Origin: Synergistaceae bacterium
GTDB lineage: Bacteria > Synergistota > Synergistia > Synergistales > Synergistaceae
DNA: 64,000 bases
Direction of reading: 5' to 3'
Assembly: GCA_021372895.1 (NCBI GenBank)
Contig: JAJFTP010000095.1
Coordinates: 1-64,000, forward strand
The position numbers and the translations under genes were made by a program. Positions 40-10,915 of this stretch are shown one piece after another (within the stretch, counting starts at the first letter, position 1; each line of letters starts with the position of its first letter). Under the pieces are notes generated by a model. That model did no database searches. It was not told the DNA's origin and worked only from the letters and a program-made list of their open reading frames with translations.

Positions 40-169
40 CCATATCCCTCTTTTCGTGCTTCTGCTAGGGATATTTTCAAGTACATTTTTGTTTTGACGC
101 AACGATGTGTTTTTGAGTACTTTTTTAATGACGCAATGCGACCCGTTTACACAGAATTATATGAATGGT

Positions 170-184
170 ATACTTTTAAAGTAT
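170..184. promoter_or_regulatory. 7-1-7 inverted repeat upstream of the DUF3089 gene
   Basis: ATACTTT-T-AAAGTAT is a perfect inverted repeat in the leader between the two divergent genes, about 60 bases before the chosen start of the DUF3089 gene. It could be an operator for a dimeric regulator. It is too short and AT-rich to be a terminator. Function is inferred only from symmetry and position. Confidence 0.3.
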
Positions 185-241
185 CATATTATTAGAGTAT
201 TCTATATACTTGTAAAGCTGTTCAGAAAGGGGTTGTCTGTT

Positions 242-1258
242 TTGTCATCGCGTATTTACCGTTATACCGTACTGTCTCTCCTATCTTTGCTTCTTTTATC
301 ATGGGATCCAATTTTATGCAGCGCATCTTCAGGTCCTGCTGATCCTTTCAGTTTTTCTTCTGCTCCCGCTGCCCCTGTATATTCTGATATATCTTCATGG
401 GCTGTAACTCCTAAAGATACTGCCAGATATCCGGTAGATGTACTGTTTTTTTATCCTACAACTTACTTTGATGATAAGAACTGGAATCAGTCAATAAAAG
501 AGGCGGCAATAGACAAAAAAATCCCACAATGGATCAAAAGTCAGGCAGGGATTTTCAATGGTTCCGCTAATCTTTATGTGCCATATTATAGACAGGCTAC
601 GATATATGTTTTAAATGCGCCGCTCAACAGCAATAACCATCATGCAATGGATATTGCATATGATGATGTTGAACATGCATTTGACTACTATATGAAAAAT
701 TGGAATAAAGGGCGACCTTTCATATTATCCGGTCATAGTCAGGGTTCAAACCTTTTATTTATGTTGCTTAAACGTCGTTTTAATGATAAAACACTGCAGA
801 AACAGCTTGTAGCTGCGTATGTTATCGGCTGGCCTGTTACGCAAGAAGATCTGGAAAAATATCCGCACCTTAAAATGAGTGAAACTCCTGATGAGACTGG
901 ATGCATAATCAGTTATAACACACAGGAAGCTGACTCGCCTGTTTCCATTGTCATAAAAGGTACGGTTGCAGTAAATCCATTGACAATGACATTAACAAAA
1001 GATTTTGTCCCTGCGGAAAAAAATCTTGGTGCTATGTTCTTCACAGAGGACAACGTACAATATATTCCATATTATACAGGAGCTCAGATAATAGACGGTG
1101 CACTTATTATCCCTCGGCCGTCAAACGCTGATTTATTACAGACGTCGCCACCAGGTTTTTATCACCAATATGATTACACATTTTTTTATTGCAATCTGGT
1201 TGAAAATGTAAATGCGCGTATAAAAGCCTATTTACGCAAGAATATGCCAGCAAAATAA
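242..1258 (+). CDS. DUF3089-family secreted alpha/beta-hydrolase-like protein
   Basis: A 338-residue protein of the DUF3089 family, which has an alpha/beta-hydrolase-like fold; the natural substrate is not known. I start it at TTG 242 because AGAAAGGGG lies just upstream (224-232) and because this start places a signal peptide at the N-terminus: a basic SSRIYR head, a leucine-rich core and a small-residue CSASS exit. An in-frame ATG at 107 would add 45 residues and bury the signal. Visible motifs are the strand VDVLFFYPTTYFDD near the mature N-terminus and the nucleophile elbow GHSQGS about 175 residues further on, whose Ser is the probable catalytic residue. The gene stands alone, is AT-rich, and is followed by the stress-protein gene after a 133-base gap that contains a promoter. 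Confidence 0.75.
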   Translation: MSSRIYRYTVLSLLSLLLLSWDPILCSASSGPADPFSFSSAPAAPVYSDISSWAVTPKDTARYPVDVLFFYPTTYFDDKNWNQSIKEAAIDKKIPQWIKSQAGIFNGSANLYVPYYRQATIYVLNAPLNSNNHHAMDIAYDDVEHAFDYYMKNWNKGRPFILSGHSQGSNLLFMLLKRRFNDKTLQKQLVAAYVIGWPVTQEDLEKYPHLKMSETPDETGCIISYNTQEADSPVSIVIKGTVAVNPLTMTLTKDFVPAEKNLGAMFFTEDNVQYIPYYTGAQIIDGALIIPRPSNADLLQTSPPGFYHQYDYTFFYCNLVENVNARIKAYLRKNMPAK

Positions 1259-1391: not shown

Positions 1392-2264
1392 ATGTTTAGA
1401 AGGGTGATCGTTGCATTGGATCTATCAAGGGATTCTCAGGCTCTTGTGAGCTGTTTTGGGGCTTTAAATGTTTATGGCATTGAGAAGTGTCTGCTGCTGC
1501 AGTTTTGGGATATGCTGGAAATTCTGGGGATCAATAATTTTTACAGCCCTACAGCGCTTATTGATTTTAAAAAAAACCTTCAAAACCAGAAAGAAATACT
1601 TGAAAAACAAGGATATGAGGTAGAGGCAAGGTTATTATCAGGATTTTCAACAAGTGAGATAAACAAAATTGCTGATGAAGAAAATTATTCAGCCGTTGTA
1701 GTCGGTACAGATAAGGACATTTTCAGTCCTATGGCCAATGAGTTGATCCATAATGTAGAAAAACCTATCCTGATTGTTAAATTGGATTTAGATGGAGAAG
1801 GACCAGGAATATCCTGCACAAAAGCAGCAGGTGGCAAAATAACAAATCATGTTTTATTCCCAACTGATTTCTCTAAAAATGCAGAACAGGCGTTTGACTG
1901 CTTAGTAGAAATGGCAGCGGCTGATAAAATAAAGAAAATTACATTAGTTCATGTGCAGGATCAATATCGCATCAGTCCCTATCTTGATGATCGCATAGAG
2001 GAGTTTGATAAGATCGACACCGAACGCCTTGAAAACATGCAAAGGATCCTTAAGGAGAAGGGACATGCCGAGGTGGATATAGTTTTGAAATTTGGGTCCC
2101 CCTCGGTCAAGATCCTGCAATTAGTCAAAGAACGTAATGTACAGCTTGTTGTCATGGGCAGCCAGGGCCGTGGTTTCGTAAAAGAATTTTTCTTGGGAAG
2201 CGTAAGCCATAATATCGCACGTCAATCACTGTCGTCTGTTTTGCTGATTCCGGCAAAACGATAA
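1392..2264 (+). CDS. two-domain universal stress protein (UspA family)
   Basis: A 290-residue cytoplasmic protein made of two tandem Usp domains (about 1-130 and 150-290). Usp proteins bind ATP or act as dimeric stress factors; their exact role varies. The second domain carries the nucleotide-binding signature G-x2-G-x9-G-S near the C-terminus (GSQGRG...LGSVSHN). The first domain ends in VVVGTDKDIFSPMANEL at the same place and lacks that signature, so only the second half is likely to bind ATP. The start is ATG 1392 after AAGAAGGAGG. The gene appears monocistronic, with its own promoter upstream and a hairpin shared with the convergent glucan synthase gene downstream. Confidence 0.9.
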   Translation: MFRRVIVALDLSRDSQALVSCFGALNVYGIEKCLLLQFWDMLEILGINNFYSPTALIDFKKNLQNQKEILEKQGYEVEARLLSGFSTSEINKIADEENYSAVVVGTDKDIFSPMANELIHNVEKPILIVKLDLDGEGPGISCTKAAGGKITNHVLFPTDFSKNAEQAFDCLVEMAAADKIKKITLVHVQDQYRISPYLDDRIEEFDKIDTERLENMQRILKEKGHAEVDIVLKFGSPSVKILQLVKERNVQLVVMGSQGRGFVKEFFLGSVSHNIARQSLSSVLLIPAKR

Positions 2265-2320: not shown

Positions 2321-2367
2321 GGAAGAGCCAGCCATCCGCCCATCCGCCAGCCTTTACTGGCTCTTCC
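2321..2367. terminator. bidirectional hairpin between convergent genes
   Basis: GGAAGAGCCAG (2321-2331) and CTGGCTCTTCC (2357-2367) form an 11-bp perfect stem with a 25-base loop. It lies between the 3' end of the stress-protein gene and the stop codon of the leftward GH94 gene (2369-2367), so it can serve both. There is no long T run, which lowers certainty about intrinsic termination. Confidence 0.5.
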
Positions 2368-4865
2368 TACGCGTTCAAATTCCCTGGCGTTTTCCGCTCT
2401 GCTATAACCAGATGATGTGCGCCGTCGTCTGCCATCTGTAGCATGTTGCCGGAAAGTCTGGCCCCGTCAACGGTTAACTCGGTTATACCTGTATTTTCAT
2501 CACTTTTATTTATAACCCTTATTTCGTACGTTGTATTTCCGTACCTGTACCAAACTGTATAATCCCCGAAGCTTGCCGGAGTTGAAGGAGCTATTATCAG
2601 TCCGGTATTTTCTTTTATGATTCCGAGAAAATTTTTGATCAGTCCCTGATACATCCATCCTGCCGACCCAGTATACCAACTCCAGCCGCCCCTGCCTGTA
2701 TCCGATCCGCCCACGGATGATATATCCGCCGTCATAACGTAAGGCTCCTTTTCATACCGGAGCGCATCCTTCCTGGCGGAAGTTATGTGAATGGGGTTCA
2801 GCATTGTGAAGAGTGTATGTGCTAGACTGTGATCGCCAATCATAGAAGCGGCGATAGCCAGCCATACTGACGCGTGAGAATATTGACCGCCGTTTTCCCT
2901 TACTCCAGGATAGTAATTTTTAATGTATCCTGGATTTTTGTTGGTTTTGTCGAAGGGAGGATAAAGGAGTAAAGAGAGTCCGTCTTTCTCATTGACCAAA
3001 TATTGTTTGGCAGAGTGGATAGCTTTTAACGCCCTATCTCTTTCTGCTCCGCCTGAAATAACGCTCCAAGACTGGCTGATGGAATCAATTTTACATTCGT
3101 CGTTTTCCCTTGAGCCTATTTTTTCGTAATCGTCATAAAAAGCCCTTATATACCATTCGCCATCCCATGCATGTTCCTCTATGTTGCATAAAAGTGTTTT
3201 TCTGCTGCTTTCCTGTTCTTTGGCAAAGTCATTGTCTTTTTCATGGCTGCAAAGGGGGATAAATTCCCCAAGCAGTCCATAAAGGAACCATCCCAGCCAG
3301 ATGCTCTCTCCCTTGCCCTCAATGCCGACTTGATCCATACCGTCGTTCCAATCGCCGCCTCCCATCAATGGCAGGCCATGTACTCCAAACCGTGTATAAA
3401 TTATGGTTTTCTTGCAATGTTCATAAACAGTACCATCCATATCCGATACTTCAGGAGTAAACATAGCCTCATGTTTATCCTTGTCCAACAGCGGACCCTT
3501 AATATAAGGGACCCTTTCCTTCAGTATGGAATAGTCGCCTGTGCATCTGACATAAATGGCAGTGACATAGGGAAGCCAGAGCAAGTCGTCGCTAATTCTC
3601 GTCCGTACCCCAACCCCGGTAGGAGGATGCCACCAGTGCTGGACATCACCTTCTTCAAACTGTCTGCTGCAGGCGAGCATAATCTGTTTTCTTGCTACCC
3701 CTGGATCGGTATATAGAAGGGCAAGCACATCCTGAAGCTGGTCTCTGAACCCATAAGCCCCCCCCGACTGATAGAAGGCAGACCTTGCATTGATCCTGCT
3801 GGAAACAGTCTGATATAGAAGCCAGCCGTTCAGAAGTATATCAATAGCTCTATCTTCGGTCTTCACCTTGATGGTGCCCAGAATGCCGTCCCAATAGGCC
3901 TTTATTTTTTCCAGTTCAATGTCGATCATGGAAGCATCTTTATACTTGTATCTTAATGTTTTTATTTTATTATAATCTGCACTCTGTCCCAGGCCAAAAA
4001 CGACAGTTTTGCTTTCACCAGGCTTTATTGCTATCGATACCTGTATAACTCCGCATGGATCGTATCCCACACCGGTATTGCATGATAATTTTTTCTTCAG
4101 TCCTTCTGGGTTTGTTATGGAGCCTTTTAAGCCCAGAAATTCCCTCCGGTTCCCCGTATAGCCCGTTATCATTTCGCTCGAGAATATAAAGCTTTTCTGT
4201 TCCCGGAAACGACCATTATATGTATTTTTTGCTGTAAGGTATTCGTTTTCATTGTTATAAGAGGACACTGTGTATGGTTCTGCATGTTCTTTATCCACGC
4301 CCATGACCCATTCCACATAATAAGTGACGCTCAAATACTTGTCCTGGTCGGAAAGGTTGACAAGCTTGAGGCTCCAAAGTTTTACAGGCTCGTCAAGTGG
4401 AGTTAATACCTTAAGCTCCTGCTTAATATTGTTTTCGTCATGAAAGAAAACCGAATATCCAAAACCATGCCTTACCCTGTAAGTTCCTCTGTCCATTCTT
4501 CCAAGGGACGTTGTAGTTATTACCTTTCCGGTTATCTCGTCCTTGATATATATTGCCTCTGAAGCCCTATCGCATACAGGATCATTGGACCACGGCGTTA
4601 TTTTATTCTCTCTGCTGTTAACTGCCCATGTCATTCCAGCGCCTGATTCAGTAACCAAAAAGCCAAAATCAGGGTTGGCTATTACGTTGACCCATGGTGC
4701 GGGAGGTCTGTTATAATCACTTAGAATGATTTCATATTCTCTGCCATTTTCAACGAAACCACCGAAGCCGTTGAAGAACTCACAGTTTTGGTTCTCTATA
4801 GGGGATATATTTTCTTCATTCAACGATTTCATCGCCTTTCCATATAACGTTGCATCTTTGCTCAA
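2367..4865 (-). CDS. GH94 phosphorylase half of a split cyclic beta-1,2-glucan synthase
   Basis: An 832-residue protein matching the C-terminal GH94 region of NdvB/Cgs. In the single-chain enzymes this domain phosphorolyses linear beta-1,2-glucan and so sets chain length before ring closure. The N-terminal beta-sandwich begins at FGGFVENGREYEI and APWVNVIANPDFGF; the (alpha/alpha)6 barrel includes QLQDVLALLYTDP and the GGGDWNDGMD segment, whose Asp is the expected general acid. It starts at TTG 4865 with AAGGAA upstream, overlapping the stop of the upstream gene as TTGA, which suggests translational coupling; ATG 4832 is an alternative. Its size plus the 2017 residues of the upstream protein equals one full NdvB chain (about 2,850 residues). 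No signal or membrane segment is seen, so it probably acts in the cytoplasm beside its membrane-bound partner. Confidence 0.85.
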   Translation of the reverse strand: MSKDATLYGKAMKSLNEENISPIENQNCEFFNGFGGFVENGREYEIILSDYNRPPAPWVNVIANPDFGFLVTESGAGMTWAVNSRENKITPWSNDPVCDRASEAIYIKDEITGKVITTTSLGRMDRGTYRVRHGFGYSVFFHDENNIKQELKVLTPLDEPVKLWSLKLVNLSDQDKYLSVTYYVEWVMGVDKEHAEPYTVSSYNNENEYLTAKNTYNGRFREQKSFIFSSEMITGYTGNRREFLGLKGSITNPEGLKKKLSCNTGVGYDPCGVIQVSIAIKPGESKTVVFGLGQSADYNKIKTLRYKYKDASMIDIELEKIKAYWDGILGTIKVKTEDRAIDILLNGWLLYQTVSSRINARSAFYQSGGAYGFRDQLQDVLALLYTDPGVARKQIMLACSRQFEEGDVQHWWHPPTGVGVRTRISDDLLWLPYVTAIYVRCTGDYSILKERVPYIKGPLLDKDKHEAMFTPEVSDMDGTVYEHCKKTIIYTRFGVHGLPLMGGGDWNDGMDQVGIEGKGESIWLGWFLYGLLGEFIPLCSHEKDNDFAKEQESSRKTLLCNIEEHAWDGEWYIRAFYDDYEKIGSRENDECKIDSISQSWSVISGGAERDRALKAIHSAKQYLVNEKDGLSLLLYPPFDKTNKNPGYIKNYYPGVRENGGQYSHASVWLAIAASMIGDHSLAHTLFTMLNPIHITSARKDALRYEKEPYVMTADISSVGGSDTGRGGWSWYTGSAGWMYQGLIKNFLGIIKENTGLIIAPSTPASFGDYTVWYRYGNTTYEIRVINKSDENTGITELTVDGARLSGNMLQMADDGAHHLVIAERKTPGNLNA

Positions 4866-7800
4866 AACGATTCCTTGACATTCCTGAAGTATATGCCTGT
4901 CTTATCTGTGAAAACAACTCTCGCAACGGTGAGGAGCAGATCCACCTCAGTCGGTGTCATCTGGTATGTATGTAGTATAAAGAGGCTGGGTTGCTCCCTC
5001 TTTTCATCATATATCTTAAGAGAAGATGTCATCTCATTCAGCATATCGTCAAGCTTCTGCATGTAACCGTATGGAGCTTCGCTGAGTATCACCAGATCTA
5101 TATTTACCTCATTTATTCTCAGATATTCATAAGCTTTGATTACATCCTTTATTATCCCGACATCCTCAGTAGAGTTGACCCTCAGTAACATTATAGGGTT
5201 ATCTCCGGATATGCCGAATTTCCATAAATCGCTTTGGTTCCCCCAGTTCCGTCGGATGTTCTCTGCCGGACCTCTGTAATAAATTGACGGATAAAATATC
5301 GGACTGATTAAATTCTGAAATGCGTTAAGCTCTGAACTTGAGATATTCAGATATTTAAGTTCAAGGGCACTTTGTAGCCTGAACTTTACATTTATATCCT
5401 CTAGCTGAGGGATATAGTTTAGTTCCTCGCCTATTCTTATTGCCTCTTCCTTTCCGGAACACACTCCTGTAATAAAATAAATACTGGCTGTGCTTTCTGC
5501 TTCCAAATCAATGTTTACCCTTAAGCTTATAATAGGATCATTTGAAAAACCTGCGTTATTCGACATGGGGCGGCTTTCTACGACTGTATCCGGGTTTCGG
5601 ACTGTATTATTTCTGCCGATGAATTTCAGTCTGTCGTTCTCATATTCGATACTTCTTGAAAGTTTCAGTTGTGATTTGACCATATGCATCAGGTATGGGG
5701 ATTTGCCGTCTTTCCCATCCCGTCTTTTAGACAGAAAAATATCATGCCCTTCTATAAACTGGCTTTCTATGAAAAGTTTGTTAAACGCAGGGTGAGCGAT
5801 TTCCGCCGAAAAACTATCCATAACTACCTCCATATAACTTGTCAGTTCTATGAGTTTTTTCTCGTTGCTGTGGTTAGTCAATGTAACTTTACGGACCTCT
5901 AGGTTATGATTCGGTGACAGATTCACAACCGTATGAGAGGATACATCATCATCTCTTCTGTTAAACTCTATCTGATGGGGCGAGAATATGACCTTATATT
6001 CGTCCGGTTCTGTCTTAGTAGGATTATACGTGCTGCTCCAAAGCCTACCGCTTTTTATGTCTTTTATAAATATATAACTGCCCGTACAGGCATAAATATC
6101 GGATCTCCATCTGTAAAGCATTAAGTCCCTGTAATAGCTAAAACCATCTCCGTCTGAAGTTATCATTATAGAATAGTTGTCGTTTGACAGTAAATGTGCT
6201 ATGGGCATTTCAGGTGCGACCTTGCTGACATGTCTTTTATGAGGGATTTCCTGAGGGATATCCATTTTCTTGAGTTGGATATTATACCCTTTCCTGGAAA
6301 TCAGGATAAAATATGAGGCAAGTTTTTCTTCGAGAAGCATTTCTGTGGCCTTTATAATGGGTTCGGCATGAAATCTTCTCTTCATTACTCCGTTATGAAT
6401 GAAATTATTTATAGATACCAGACTCATGCCCTGATGGTGGGCCATGAAAGATTTAACTATAGAGTATGGAGTTATGGCTACAGGGTCGGGACCGTTGAAA
6501 TCTATTGCTTCGTAGTATCCATAATAACCGGTACATCCGAGCTCTGCCAGCTTCCTGAGATTTGAGAAGCAATGCTTATCGGCGTAATCCAAGGCTATTA
6601 TCGTTGCATAGGGGGCAACTACCAATGTCGGGCTCAGGGAAGGCTGAAGGCGCAGCTCCGGCACGCCGAATGCCCTGTACTGATAATTGGAGTCCTGGTC
6701 AAAATGGTAGTGCTGTGATTCGGATATGCCCCAGCATGGGATCCCTATCCGCTTAGCATACTTTATCTGTTTTATAACTGCGGCTCTTGATGTCTCGGCA
6801 AAGACAGAACCTTTGTATTCCTTCATGACCAGATTCGGCATAAGGTATTCGAACATAGTTCCGCTCCATGATACAAAGCATGGTATCCCGTCAACGATAG
6901 TAAGAGGTCTTCCAAGTTTATACCAATGTTCTACCAGCACATCGTTTCTTGCCACGGTTAAAAAGCTGGTCAGTAAAAATTCGGAGGCAGCCAGATCATA
7001 GCAGCCTGAATCCAGTTTTTGTGATGACAAATTGTAGCCGATATGGAACAACTTGCGTTTTTCATTATATAGAAAACGAAAATCGACATTACTAAACATA
7101 ATGTCTATATTTTTGGTAATGGACTCTATTTTTTCCATAAGAGCCTTTGCATGTAAATTATCTTTTAAGACAAGCTCCCTCAATGTGGGCACAGAAGCAA
7201 AGCTGCCGCTTATTTCGAAATCTGAGATTTCATTTAAGATGGAGTCGATGCTGAAGTTTAGCTCTCCGATAAAGCGGGCTCCTTCTCTGTGGGCATGGTC
7301 CTGTGAATTAATATTTCCCTTTATCTTGGTAATTTCGTTTATAAATTCTTCTATTGTCTCGTAATTATTTTTTAGTTCAATATCATAACCGCATAAGCCT
7401 ATAATATCTCTGAGGCCAAAGACCAGATCAGGCGAGAGCAGCGGAGCATCAATAAGCTCAAGGAGCCCGTTTTTAAGAGTAATCATATACGCATAAAAGT
7501 TTCCGCTGTCTACAGTAGATATATATGGGGGATTCAACACATCAAGAGTTTTGATGTTGTACCAGTTGTAAAGATGTCCCCTCCATTTTGGCAGCCGCTC
7601 AATGGATTGGAATATCTTCCAGATATATTCCAATGTTTTGTTCAGGGTTTCAAATCCTAAATCCCTTGCTGAAAGGACTGATAAAAGTTGAAGCCCAATA
7701 TTGGTTGGCGAAGTTTTGTCAGTGACTTTCTCCGTGGGTTCACTCTGGTAATTGTCCGGGCAAAGCCAGTTGTTGCTCTCTGTTGAGAAATCCTTAAAGA

Positions 7801-10800
7801 ACTGCCACGTTCTGCGTGCTGTCTCCCTCAGCATCTTCTCATTCTCATCCGATATGATCTTTTGACTGTTGTCCTCCGGCAGGCTGATACCGTAAGCTAT
7901 CAGATACGATAGACCCCAGGCGGCGGATAATGTCCCGTAAAGGACCATTCCTGTCAGTGGTATCTCAACTGAGGATAACAATTTGATTATTATAGCGGAA
8001 GGTATCAGGGAACTGCACATATGAAGAAAATAGTTTGTTTTTGTACCCAGGGCGTATTTCTCTGTGGTTTCGGCGGTATTCCACATAAGAAGGTGTCTCC
8101 TGCTCTTAATAAGCCTGTACAATGTCCGTAATATTGCATCCGCAGCAATATAGGCCCTGTATGGCGCGAAGGCTATATCCAGGAGCGCCCTTTGTATAAT
8201 CTGCAAGATGTCTTTCAGCAGATCTTTATATACAATGACAAGTTTCGGTCTGCGGATCTTCTGCGAAATAATCCCATAAAGAATAAAAAAGAGACTGACA
8301 ATATCAGCGAAAAACACCAAAGGCAGCCAGAGGTAATAAATCTCCGGCATCAGTGCAAGATTTAGAATTATTATAAGGACTTTGCACAGCGGCACAAGAC
8401 TTAGCCTGAGATTGTCGAATATTTTCCATTTGGATAACCCGGCAAGTGTTTTTTTCTTAAACAGCCACGGCAATAGCTGCCAATCTCCCCTTATCCATCT
8501 ATGCTCCCTTAGTGCATAGGAGATGACGTTGCCGGGATAGTCTTCCATTATTTTTACAGCGCCGGAAAAAGCGGTTTTGACATAACAGCTTTCTAGCAGG
8601 TCATGGCTCAGTACGCTGTTCTCCGGTATGTTCTTGTTCATAATGGCATGAAAGGCTTTTATATCGTATATCCCTTTGCCGGCAAAAACGCCCTCGTCAA
8701 ATATGTCATGATAAATATCCGATATGACTGTTGAGTAGTGGTCTAATCCCTGTTTGCCGGCAAAGACTTTGTAAAAAAGGTTGTTTTTTTTGTATTGGAT
8801 ATTATTTGTTATAGAAGGTTGAATTATTGCATAGCCGTCTTTAACCCTTCTCTTCTCGTAATCTATAACCGGTTGGTTTAGGGGGTGATCTATTATACCG
8901 ACAAGCATTGATGCGTTATCCTTTAAAAGGACAGAATCGGAATCCAATGTGATCACATATTTGAAGGTATGAAGCAGGTTTTCATCACACAATATGATCG
9001 AATAGCTTGTATCCTTCTCCCCTGACAGAAGGGCGTTAAATTCCTCAAGCTTTCCCCGTTTACGTTCCCAACACATATAACATTTTTCAGATTCATTCCA
9101 TTTCCGGAATCTTACGAAAAGCGAAAAACGATTGTATTCTGATGGATAAAGAGTATTCAGCCTGTTGATCTCTTCAATTAAAACATTTTCAAGCTCTTTA
9201 TCTTCCGGCAACTCTTTTGCAGGAGAATCCTTAAAGTCGACCAGCAGGGCAAAGAAAAGATTTGACTGCCTATTGGTCAAATAATGTCTTTGCAGTTTAC
9301 TTACATACTCAAGCGCTTGTTTTTTGGATGAAATGATCACGGGCATTACCAGAAATGTCCGGGCCCTGTCGGGGATGCCTTTTAGATAATCAAGAGCAGG
9401 CAACTCCCTCACCTTGATAAGCCTGGCAAATATATTATTTGTTATATCAGTGGCTATCCCGATAACAATACACAATGCAGCGGCGAGGAAAAATAATTCA
9501 CCATATATCCCGCATGTTACTTTAGAACGCCGCAGAATGTATATTAAAATACAGTAAGCTATAAAAATTGTCACGTATAAAGAGATAAAATATAAGAGTC
9601 CTTTGAAATTATGCTTGGGCTGAAGATTCATGGGGCCCGGTTTATTTAAAATTTTTGCCACCAGGAGGGGATATCCATGACCGATAAGGTAAGAGCCGAC
9701 ATGATTAGCACATTTCAGATCATCTCTGCCTTTGACGGCAAGTTCCAGGCAAAACTCTGCTATTGTTTTTTCTTCCATTTTATGTTTCAGCGATAGTTTT
9801 TCTATTACAGCCCTGTAATTGCTGCGGCTCTTTTGATCCATAGCAGGATATACTTCTGCCGGGTCTTTAAGCAGGATGTGCTCAATGGTTGAAAGGTCCT
9901 CAAAAAAAATCACACCGTCTATTTCAGATGCTTCCCATAAACTGGCTAAAAAGATCCGGATGTTGGACTCAAGGTACGATTCCAGTTTGCCCTCATCCAG
10001 AAATATATCTGAAGGTTTTGAGTATTTTGTTTCATTGAAATAGCATTCTACATATCTTTGGATGGAGGAATCGTCAAAAGCCATATTTTTCAGCAGGTAT
10101 ATAACATAAGAATGGAATGAAATATTTTTGCTGTACTTTTCTTCCACCCCCTTAAGAAGGGGATCGATACTGATCGTGTTTCCTTGCTCCCTCAGGCTGT
10201 TCTTAACAAAAAGGTCAGCTTTAAATTTTGTCTCTGTGATATTTATAATATCCTCAGCCACAGATGTTATGCTTTCTAAGAGACAGAAGCTTATTATTTC
10301 GGGGAGGGCCCAAAGTTCCGTGTCTGTTAATGAGAGCTCTTTTTGGTATGCCTTTACCATAAGAGAGATTTTGTCCTCGTTCAAATAACCGCCTGACAGC
10401 TTTACGATTTTTCTGGCAAGAACATAAATTCTCGGATATCCTTTGAATTCCCCTTCCTGTAATATAGGAAGGATTTTATCGCTTGTCTCCGCGGCCTTGA
10501 TTTTCTTGAGCTCTCTGTACATAATCTGGAAGTTGTCAAATAGCCAGCGCGCGGCTGGTACCAGCGCAATAATTTCCGGGGATACCCCAGATAAGGTGTC
10601 ACGAATTTTGTTCAATTTTTTGTAGGCAATGTCATTTCTATCTCTTATTACAAAATTGTATTTCTTCCATTTGACGTTCCTGTGAGCATAGGACAGATTA
10701 AGCATCTGTTGCTCCAAATCACTTGATCCGAGTATCTTTTCGGTATCTGTTGTTTCTACAGGTAGAAGGGCTCTTCTCCTGGCATTAATAAACCGGTGGC

Positions 10801-10915
10801 AAAAAAGCAAAAAGACAACGATGAAAATGACAACAGAAACCATAAACACTGCACCCCAGATAAAATTCGGAGCAGGCATTAATTCGTTAATCCCTTCAAT
10901 AATTCCTTTATACAT
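4862..10915 (-). CDS. ndvB: cyclic beta-1,2-glucan synthase, membrane GT84 and transglycosylase half (NdvB type)
   Basis: A 2017-residue inner-membrane protein corresponding to the N-terminal two thirds of NdvB/Cgs. In order: a membrane anchor (residues about 20-42), the N-terminal CGS region, two membrane segments near 440-490, a GT84 glycosyltransferase with the acidic motif LDSDS and a later HRWIRGDWQ motif (the QxxRW-like element), further membrane segments, a glycoamylase-like cyclising domain (RRTWQFFKDF, SPTNIGLQLLS, HLYNWYN), and a GH94-like beta-sandwich ending in LVILSEAPYGY and FILHTYQMT. The catalytic GH94 barrel is missing here and is encoded by the next gene. Family knowledge: UDP-glucose is polymerised to beta-1,2-glucan on a protein Tyr, then cyclised. 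The start ATG 10915 follows GGAGG with 6-base spacing. No NdvA-type exporter is present nearby. Confidence 0.88.
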   Translation of the reverse strand: MYKGIIEGINELMPAPNFIWGAVFMVSVVIFIVVFLLFCHRFINARRRALLPVETTDTEKILGSSDLEQQMLNLSYAHRNVKWKKYNFVIRDRNDIAYKKLNKIRDTLSGVSPEIIALVPAARWLFDNFQIMYRELKKIKAAETSDKILPILQEGEFKGYPRIYVLARKIVKLSGGYLNEDKISLMVKAYQKELSLTDTELWALPEIISFCLLESITSVAEDIINITETKFKADLFVKNSLREQGNTISIDPLLKGVEEKYSKNISFHSYVIYLLKNMAFDDSSIQRYVECYFNETKYSKPSDIFLDEGKLESYLESNIRIFLASLWEASEIDGVIFFEDLSTIEHILLKDPAEVYPAMDQKSRSNYRAVIEKLSLKHKMEEKTIAEFCLELAVKGRDDLKCANHVGSYLIGHGYPLLVAKILNKPGPMNLQPKHNFKGLLYFISLYVTIFIAYCILIYILRRSKVTCGIYGELFFLAAALCIVIGIATDITNNIFARLIKVRELPALDYLKGIPDRARTFLVMPVIISSKKQALEYVSKLQRHYLTNRQSNLFFALLVDFKDSPAKELPEDKELENVLIEEINRLNTLYPSEYNRFSLFVRFRKWNESEKCYMCWERKRGKLEEFNALLSGEKDTSYSIILCDENLLHTFKYVITLDSDSVLLKDNASMLVGIIDHPLNQPVIDYEKRRVKDGYAIIQPSITNNIQYKKNNLFYKVFAGKQGLDHYSTVISDIYHDIFDEGVFAGKGIYDIKAFHAIMNKNIPENSVLSHDLLESCYVKTAFSGAVKIMEDYPGNVISYALREHRWIRGDWQLLPWLFKKKTLAGLSKWKIFDNLRLSLVPLCKVLIIILNLALMPEIYYLWLPLVFFADIVSLFFILYGIISQKIRRPKLVIVYKDLLKDILQIIQRALLDIAFAPYRAYIAADAILRTLYRLIKSRRHLLMWNTAETTEKYALGTKTNYFLHMCSSLIPSAIIIKLLSSVEIPLTGMVLYGTLSAAWGLSYLIAYGISLPEDNSQKIISDENEKMLRETARRTWQFFKDFSTESNNWLCPDNYQSEPTEKVTDKTSPTNIGLQLLSVLSARDLGFETLNKTLEYIWKIFQSIERLPKWRGHLYNWYNIKTLDVLNPPYISTVDSGNFYAYMITLKNGLLELIDAPLLSPDLVFGLRDIIGLCGYDIELKNNYETIEEFINEITKIKGNINSQDHAHREGARFIGELNFSIDSILNEISDFEISGSFASVPTLRELVLKDNLHAKALMEKIESITKNIDIMFSNVDFRFLYNEKRKLFHIGYNLSSQKLDSGCYDLAASEFLLTSFLTVARNDVLVEHWYKLGRPLTIVDGIPCFVSWSGTMFEYLMPNLVMKEYKGSVFAETSRAAVIKQIKYAKRIGIPCWGISESQHYHFDQDSNYQYRAFGVPELRLQPSLSPTLVVAPYATIIALDYADKHCFSNLRKLAELGCTGYYGYYEAIDFNGPDPVAITPYSIVKSFMAHHQGMSLVSINNFIHNGVMKRRFHAEPIIKATEMLLEEKLASYFILISRKGYNIQLKKMDIPQEIPHKRHVSKVAPEMPIAHLLSNDNYSIMITSDGDGFSYYRDLMLYRWRSDIYACTGSYIFIKDIKSGRLWSSTYNPTKTEPDEYKVIFSPHQIEFNRRDDDVSSHTVVNLSPNHNLEVRKVTLTNHSNEKKLIELTSYMEVVMDSFSAEIAHPAFNKLFIESQFIEGHDIFLSKRRDGKDGKSPYLMHMVKSQLKLSRSIEYENDRLKFIGRNNTVRNPDTVVESRPMSNNAGFSNDPIISLRVNIDLEAESTASIYFITGVCSGKEEAIRIGEELNYIPQLEDINVKFRLQSALELKYLNISSSELNAFQNLISPIFYPSIYYRGPAENIRRNWGNQSDLWKFGISGDNPIMLLRVNSTEDVGIIKDVIKAYEYLRINEVNIDLVILSEAPYGYMQKLDDMLNEMTSSLKIYDEKREQPSLFILHTYQMTPTEVDLLLTVARVVFTDKTGIYFRNVKESF

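Follow-up and report, generated by a model that had tools for sequence, protein, structure and literature searches.

Organization of the locus

The window (the whole stretch of 64,000 nucleotides analysed) contains two adjoining reverse-strand genes which together correspond to a cyclic β-1,2-glucan synthase (Cgs). The GT84 and GH94 domains of Cgs are described as parts of one enzyme (excerpts of PMC3960220 and PMC8140972). The open reading frames given in the first-pass annotation, one of 2017 residues with an ATG start and one of 832 residues with a TTG start that share a TTGA, were recovered exactly (Table 1), and its assignment of the pair as a divided cyclic glucan synthase was borne out by Pfam domains and by alignment to Agrobacterium Cgs. 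The 2017-aa protein contained PF10091 (Glycoamylase) and a PF06165 sandwich, and the 832-aa protein contained PF06165 and the GH94 catalytic domain PF17167. When aligned to Agrobacterium Cgs (8rf9, single chain), the synthase half corresponded to residues 49–1978 and the GH94 half to residues 2018–2788, consecutive parts between which nothing but linker is absent. Each of the two proteins gave one match in its own genome, and no second GH94 besides the phosphorylase subunit was found in that genome.

Table 1. Features of the divided cyclic glucan synthase genes and of related loci. Positions are those of the window unless a locus is named.
Feature	Position	Strand	Basis and remarks
Synthase subunit ORF	4862–10915	-	ATG start, 2017 aa; N-terminal region, GT84, GH189 cyclase, GP1 sandwich, RFL
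N-terminal region and GT84	7769–10915	-	Alignment to Agrobacterium Cgs 8rf0
GT84 residues D658, D660 (TLDSDS), D772 (SHD)		-	Cgs 8rf0 D624, D626, D739; alignment
Priming Tyr Y727 (GLDHY)		-	Cgs 8rf0 Y694; alignment
GH189 cyclisation domain	6302–7768	-	Alignment to TiCGS 8wy1
GH189 residues E1312, E1356, E1399, H1493-H1494			TiCGS E1356, E1400, E1442, H1536-H1537; alignment to 8wy1
GP1 β-sandwich, on synthase	5465–6205	-	Equivalent of LpSOGP Ndom1; PF06165, AlphaFold2 model, Foldseek
HPAFNKLF segment of GP1, residues 1708–1715	5771–5794	-	Aligned with cellobiose phosphorylase FQRNF segment
Rossmann-fold-like domain (RFL), final ordered region of synthase subunit	4910–5413	-	AlphaFold2, Foldseek to Cgs
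Junction, synthase stop TGA (4864–4862) to likely phosphorylase start	4824–4861	-	38-base gap
Phosphorylase subunit GP2+GP3 (GH94), favored form	2367–4823	-	818 aa from TTG 4823
Phosphorylase gene, longer alternative	2367–4865	-	832 aa from TTG 4865; shares TTGA with synthase ORF
YNNENE patch of GP2	4242–4259	-	
GH94 Asp of GFRDQLQD	3741–3743	-	Cgs D2393
GH94 general acid Asp (GGDWNDGM)	3342–3344	-	Cgs D2528
Stand-alone GH94 protein	L143:5723–8116	+	
Stand-alone GH94 protein	L144:7962–10304	-	

The C-terminal half of Agrobacterium Cgs is composed of GP1, an inserted RFL (1847–2012), GP2 and GP3 (excerpts of PMC10901819). An AlphaFold2 model of residues 1541–2017 of the synthase subunit had a mean pLDDT of 87.6, with strands alternating with helices to approximately residue 2002, and the GP1-RFL model matched Cgs in Foldseek with a TMq of 0.87–0.89. 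In this model, GP1 corresponds to the first PF06165 sandwich, and RFL to what follows it. A complete fold was also predicted for the 818-residue GP2+GP3 protein (pLDDT 87.6, pTM 0.91, residues 1–11 forming a disordered tail), in which very low confidence was confined to the tails and residues 352–355; its TMq to Cgs was 0.89 with the two more complete chains, against 0.74 with 8rf9. The distance from the RFL motif to the GP2 motif in fused sequences was 48–70 residues (n = 43 distinct linkers, those caught by one sequence pattern).

The domain order GT84-GH189-GP1-RFL-GP2-GP3 and the catalytic and priming residues are the same in Agrobacterium Cgs (excerpts of PMC10901819) and in the pair. However, the Agrobacterium enzyme is one chain of approximately 2800 residues, whereas the pair consists of two chains, divided between RFL and GP2. 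This division coincides with a domain boundary, as the first-pass annotation had stated, yet lies inside the phosphorylase unit, since GP1 and RFL are on the synthase and GP2 and GP3 on the second gene; GP1 remains part of the synthase.

Judged by alignment, all catalytic residues of GT84, GH189 and GH94 that we checked are present in the window (Table 1). The roles of the GT84 Asp residues, the priming Tyr and the GH94 residues D2528 and D2393 are those given in excerpts of PMC10901819, and the roles of the GH189 residues those in excerpts of PMC10834661. The active-site Asp, Arg and Glu of GH94 were unchanged in 18/18 split rows and in 109/109 rows outside the clade (counts read by motif, with the loci L141 and L142 left out of the 109).

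Conservation of the gene split

The search for split genes among relatives, which the first-pass annotation had suggested, identified a group of 20 genomes with GH94 identity of approximately 60–72% (G000, G024, G032, G185–G190, G433, G763, G674, G688, G610, G819, G911, G754, G895, G962 and G965). The group includes the window's genome, two others of its family and 17 genomes from elsewhere, nearly all of them Clostridia (16/17, going by record title or search group; G187, locus L012, is labelled Pseudomonadota). The two genes were adjoining yet separate in all 20 genomes. Continuous genes in related strains, named there as a possible refutation, were seen only at GH94 identity of 50% or below in the samples examined. 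The nearest sequences found outside the split group were the fused genes of the Clostridia G536 (L113/L152) and G966 (L179), with 50% GH94 identity; in both, unlike in the split pair, a single open frame spans GP1-RFL as well as GP2-GP3.

An initial sample of relatives gave matches in 6 of 60 genomes. Of 185 genomes from the window's phylum, 14 gave a match: three are split (G000, G024 and G032), eight have full fused frames of 2923–3154 aa, two (G080 and G170) continue into an extended frame upstream, at the edge of a contig, and one (G182) is partial. Among the best 80 of at least 592 loci, six were split (L010–L015, 61–66% identity) and 74 were single-frame through the junction, all with approximately 48% identity or less; three of these 74 (L064, L066 and L083) shift frame farther upstream within the synthase. 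L010 comes from a cultured species, Anaerocolumna aminovalerica. Genome samples from the class and the order of G185 were even draws from larger groups. In the class, 122/391 genomes matched at 1e-150, three of which belonged to the split group (G185, G433 and G186), and eight further rows had less than 1232 aa of open frame (G366, G456, G239, G300:C495 and G283, and the partial rows G527, G264 and G464). In the order, 14/392 genomes matched: ten split (66–68%), three fused, and G757 with an internal stop. The order of G186 gave matches in 6/33 genomes, four of them split at 61–62% and two, G966 (50%) and G963 (46%), continuous through the junction. The synthase frame was full, at 1934–2096 aa, in 17 of 18 split loci, and the remaining one, L013, was cut by its contig.

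Junctions and start codons

We examined 20 junctions, 18 in one start-site comparison and two more individually. All three frames of the phosphorylase relative to the synthase occurred among the 18; in G688, G610 and G965 both genes share one frame and are separated by a stop. Internal stops listed for L014, L015 and L140 are due to matches extending beyond the terminal stop. Shine-Dalgarno (SD) energies were computed against an assumed 16S 3' end. The start with the best SD site was TTG at 13 and ATG at 5 of the 18 junctions and lay 5 to 67 bases past the synthase stop. At 14 junctions its SD energy was unmatched by any internal ATG, GTG or TTG codon of the same frame, and at the remaining four, 2–6% of internal codons had a matching site.

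The candidate starts in the window had SD duplex energies of -7.0 (TTG 4823), -5.2 (TTG 4865) and -3.3 kcal/mol (ATG 4832), and equally good SD sites were found at 3% of internal codons for TTG 4823 and 10% for TTG 4865. G024 and G032 are the nearest relatives; in both, a stop ahead of the start closes the phosphorylase frame, which opens only 22 bases past the synthase stop and so leaves no room for an overlapping start. The TTGA overlap, regarded in the first-pass annotation as a coupling element, is not conserved. The relatives point to TTG 4823, which would give an 818-aa protein and no overlap, as the best-supported start in the window, and TTG 4865 is a doubtful alternative whose conservation is absent in G024 and G032.

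Evolutionary history

In a GH94 tree of 55 rows, built by a quick method with SH-aLRT support only, the 10 of 20 split members included formed one clade (SH-aLRT 100) with the fused G536 as its sister; G966 was left out of this tree. The fused genes of the window's phylum fell into two distant clades, and its three split genes into a clade otherwise composed of Clostridia and L012. This placement of the split genes among Clostridia, with the fused genes of the phylum elsewhere, makes lateral transfer of the split pair likely, in either direction. Trees of the two halves had 14 of 16 splits in common, and their distances were correlated with r = 0.97 (17 members); both halves share one history. 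The half-trees used LG+G4 without mixture, and the program warned of the long branches L011 and L012 meeting; of four fused rows tried, L022 and L033 were dropped because the pattern missed the junction.

One distant Cgs from Clostridia, L141 (genome G366, L141:7017-15040(-), 45% GH94 identity), had its synthase half intact (1885 aa), followed by a GH94 protein of 788 aa with a TAATG overlap and a strong GGAGGTG site. It probably represents a second, independent fission at the same RFL/GP2 place, and fission at this linker may thus have occurred at least twice, in the main group and in G366. The fewest split/fused state changes on the GH94 tree numbered three when L141 and L142 were counted.

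Several other candidates for split genes were rejected. In G456 (L142:3506-13686(-)), the synthase is broken again inside GH189, so that this Cgs is broken twice. A neighboring gene, presumably a helicase judging from its sequence, is also in two ORFs, which suggests that the Cgs breaks in G456 are sequence errors or decay. The break in G239 (L145) lies inside GH94. G300:C495 and G283 (L143 and L144) encode stand-alone GH94 proteins, 34–35% identical to the window subunit, with only GP1-like cross-matches and no full synthase match in the stretch examined.

A different arrangement was observed on a Verrucomicrobiota contig, where L070:1118-4972(+) encodes a 1284-aa protein corresponding to the C-terminal half of Cgs only (GP1-RFL-GP2-GP3); no synthase match was found in the 1.1 kb upstream, where the contig ends.

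The phosphorylase pocket

The separate GH94 subunit has the domain content of cellobiose phosphorylase (3qde, 8ho7, 2cqs), a sandwich and a barrel, and its model matched these enzymes with TM of 0.85–0.87 both ways at 25–27% identity. Its sequence scored 719 bits against Cgs versus 298 bits against the best cellobiose phosphorylase; in sequence, its closest solved relative is Cgs, not cellobiose phosphorylase. The GP2+GP3 model matched LpSOGP with TM of 0.73–0.74, and the subunit consists of GP2 and GP3 only, without the equivalent of LpSOGP Ndom1. LpSOGP (5h3z, 5h42) is one monomeric chain (excerpts of PMC5309861), whereas in the window the counterpart of Ndom1 belongs to the synthase, and the remaining domains form a chain of their own. 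According to the same excerpts, cellobiose phosphorylase is a dimer with its pocket at the dimer interface, and Ndom1 of LpSOGP occupies the position that the partner subunit has in dimeric GH94 enzymes, where it forms one wall of the pocket; two Ndom1 residues, N138 and Y141, are located at the pocket, and the latter corresponds by sequence to Q165 of cellobiose phosphorylase (PMC5309861).

GP1 of the window aligned across the whole equivalent domain of cellobiose phosphorylase. Its HPAFNKLF segment was aligned with the FQRNF segment, which we take to hold the equivalent of Q165. HPAFNKLF was invariant in 17/17 split rows (17 of the 18 split synthases), and its His and final Phe were also invariant in 108 other rows, which include L141 and L142. 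In both sets it was the most conserved 8-residue stretch of GP1 (a fraction of 0.004 of 237 stretches, i.e., itself). The corresponding segment of GP2, which was picked by eye, was equalled or exceeded in conservation by 86–94% of GP2 stretches in the split rows and by 95–98% in the other rows. That the GP1 segment is the most conserved and its GP2 counterpart among the less conserved favors a pocket completed by GP1, in which HPAFNKLF would have a role by homology to cellobiose phosphorylase and LpSOGP, although its conservation may instead be owed to folding. Right behind the compared GP2 segment lies a YNNENE patch (Table 1), in which a Tyr, an Asn and two Glu were invariant in 18/18 split rows and variable in 109 other rows. 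This split-only patch might mediate binding to the synthase or, alternatively, a new homodimer interface.

A proposed two-subunit enzyme and alternative explanations

Because this genome and 19 others encode it as two genes, we regard the pair as a two-chain variant of Cgs rather than a typical member. The pair is a real and old gene fission, a known enzyme in a new form, and we found no description of a Cgs divided into two genes in the open-access papers searched. The first-pass annotation had considered a frameshift in a single gene as the main alternative. An assembly or sequencing indel at 4862–4870, programmed frameshifting or transcript slippage might be suspected from the TTTT run at the junction and from the draft state of the window's genome (97 contigs), but this is the least credible of the explanations: the 19 other genomes have the same layout with differing frames, gaps and stops, most best starts have SD energies that same-frame internal start codons do not reach, and the phosphorylase frame is closed before its start in the two nearest relatives. 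Separate genes in 20/20 close relatives, in all three relative frames, reject both sequencing error and programmed frameshifting, and the split is conserved. Decay of both halves into remnants would agree with their patchy presence in the window's phylum (14/185 genomes), but is very improbable, as every checked catalytic residue is present in both halves and the synthase frame is full in every examined locus that its contig does not cut.

A more serious alternative is that the GH94 subunit is a free homodimer which, like cellobiose phosphorylase, degrades linear β-1,2-glucan to glucose 1-phosphate independently of synthesis. Its complete stand-alone predicted fold matches whole cellobiose phosphorylase chains, which act as dimers, so that the subunit could be self-sufficient; the lack of another GH94 found in the genome and the split-only patch in GP2 also fit this explanation. 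However, the GP2 segment on which closure of the partner's pocket would depend ranks below most of GP2 in conservation in both split and other rows, the GP1 segment is the most conserved of its domain, and the GH94 gene is beside the synthase in 20/20 genomes. An independent phosphorylase, as proposed in the first-pass annotation, is thus less likely than stated there, since GP1, whose LpSOGP equivalent forms part of the pocket, stays on the synthase; we regard it as unlikely, with perhaps a minority chance of being correct. We favor, with some confidence, a two-subunit enzyme in which the phosphorylase pocket is completed in trans by GP1.

In such a two-subunit enzyme, the synthase subunit would prime itself, elongate β-1,2-glucan and cyclise the product. 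The GH94 subunit, with a translation start of its own shortly after the synthase gene, would dock onto GP1/RFL, where GP1 would close the phosphorylase pocket in trans, and would trim the protein-bound glucan chain while providing the scaffold surface given in single-chain Cgs by the C-terminal domain. In Agrobacterium Cgs, C-terminal truncation abolishes function and mutation of the GP acid has a minor effect only (excerpts of PMC10901819), suggesting that the GH94 subunit, once docked, may be required as a scaffold too. The chances appear about even that fission has placed the active site at the interface of GP1 and the GH94 subunit, usually with a TTG start for the latter, and has made glucan length control dissociable and dose-dependent. 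If so, the pair is a natural split enzyme. With part of the C-terminal domain encoded as a separate subunit, that part can be deleted, titrated or swapped with the membrane enzyme untouched, and scaffolding could be separated from length control. For annotation, the second gene resembles a cellobiose phosphorylase, yet belongs with the synthase.

Genomic neighborhood

No flanking gene family was common to the split group in 18 loci, several of which were cut short, and the most widespread families each occurred in four of them. No tRNA genes were found in window positions 1–64000 with ARAGORN. The pair in the window has two convergent neighbors, a DUF3089 protein (107–1258(+)) and a universal stress protein containing two Usp stretches (1392–2264(+)); a relative of the latter (family F11) is also present near the pair in G032.
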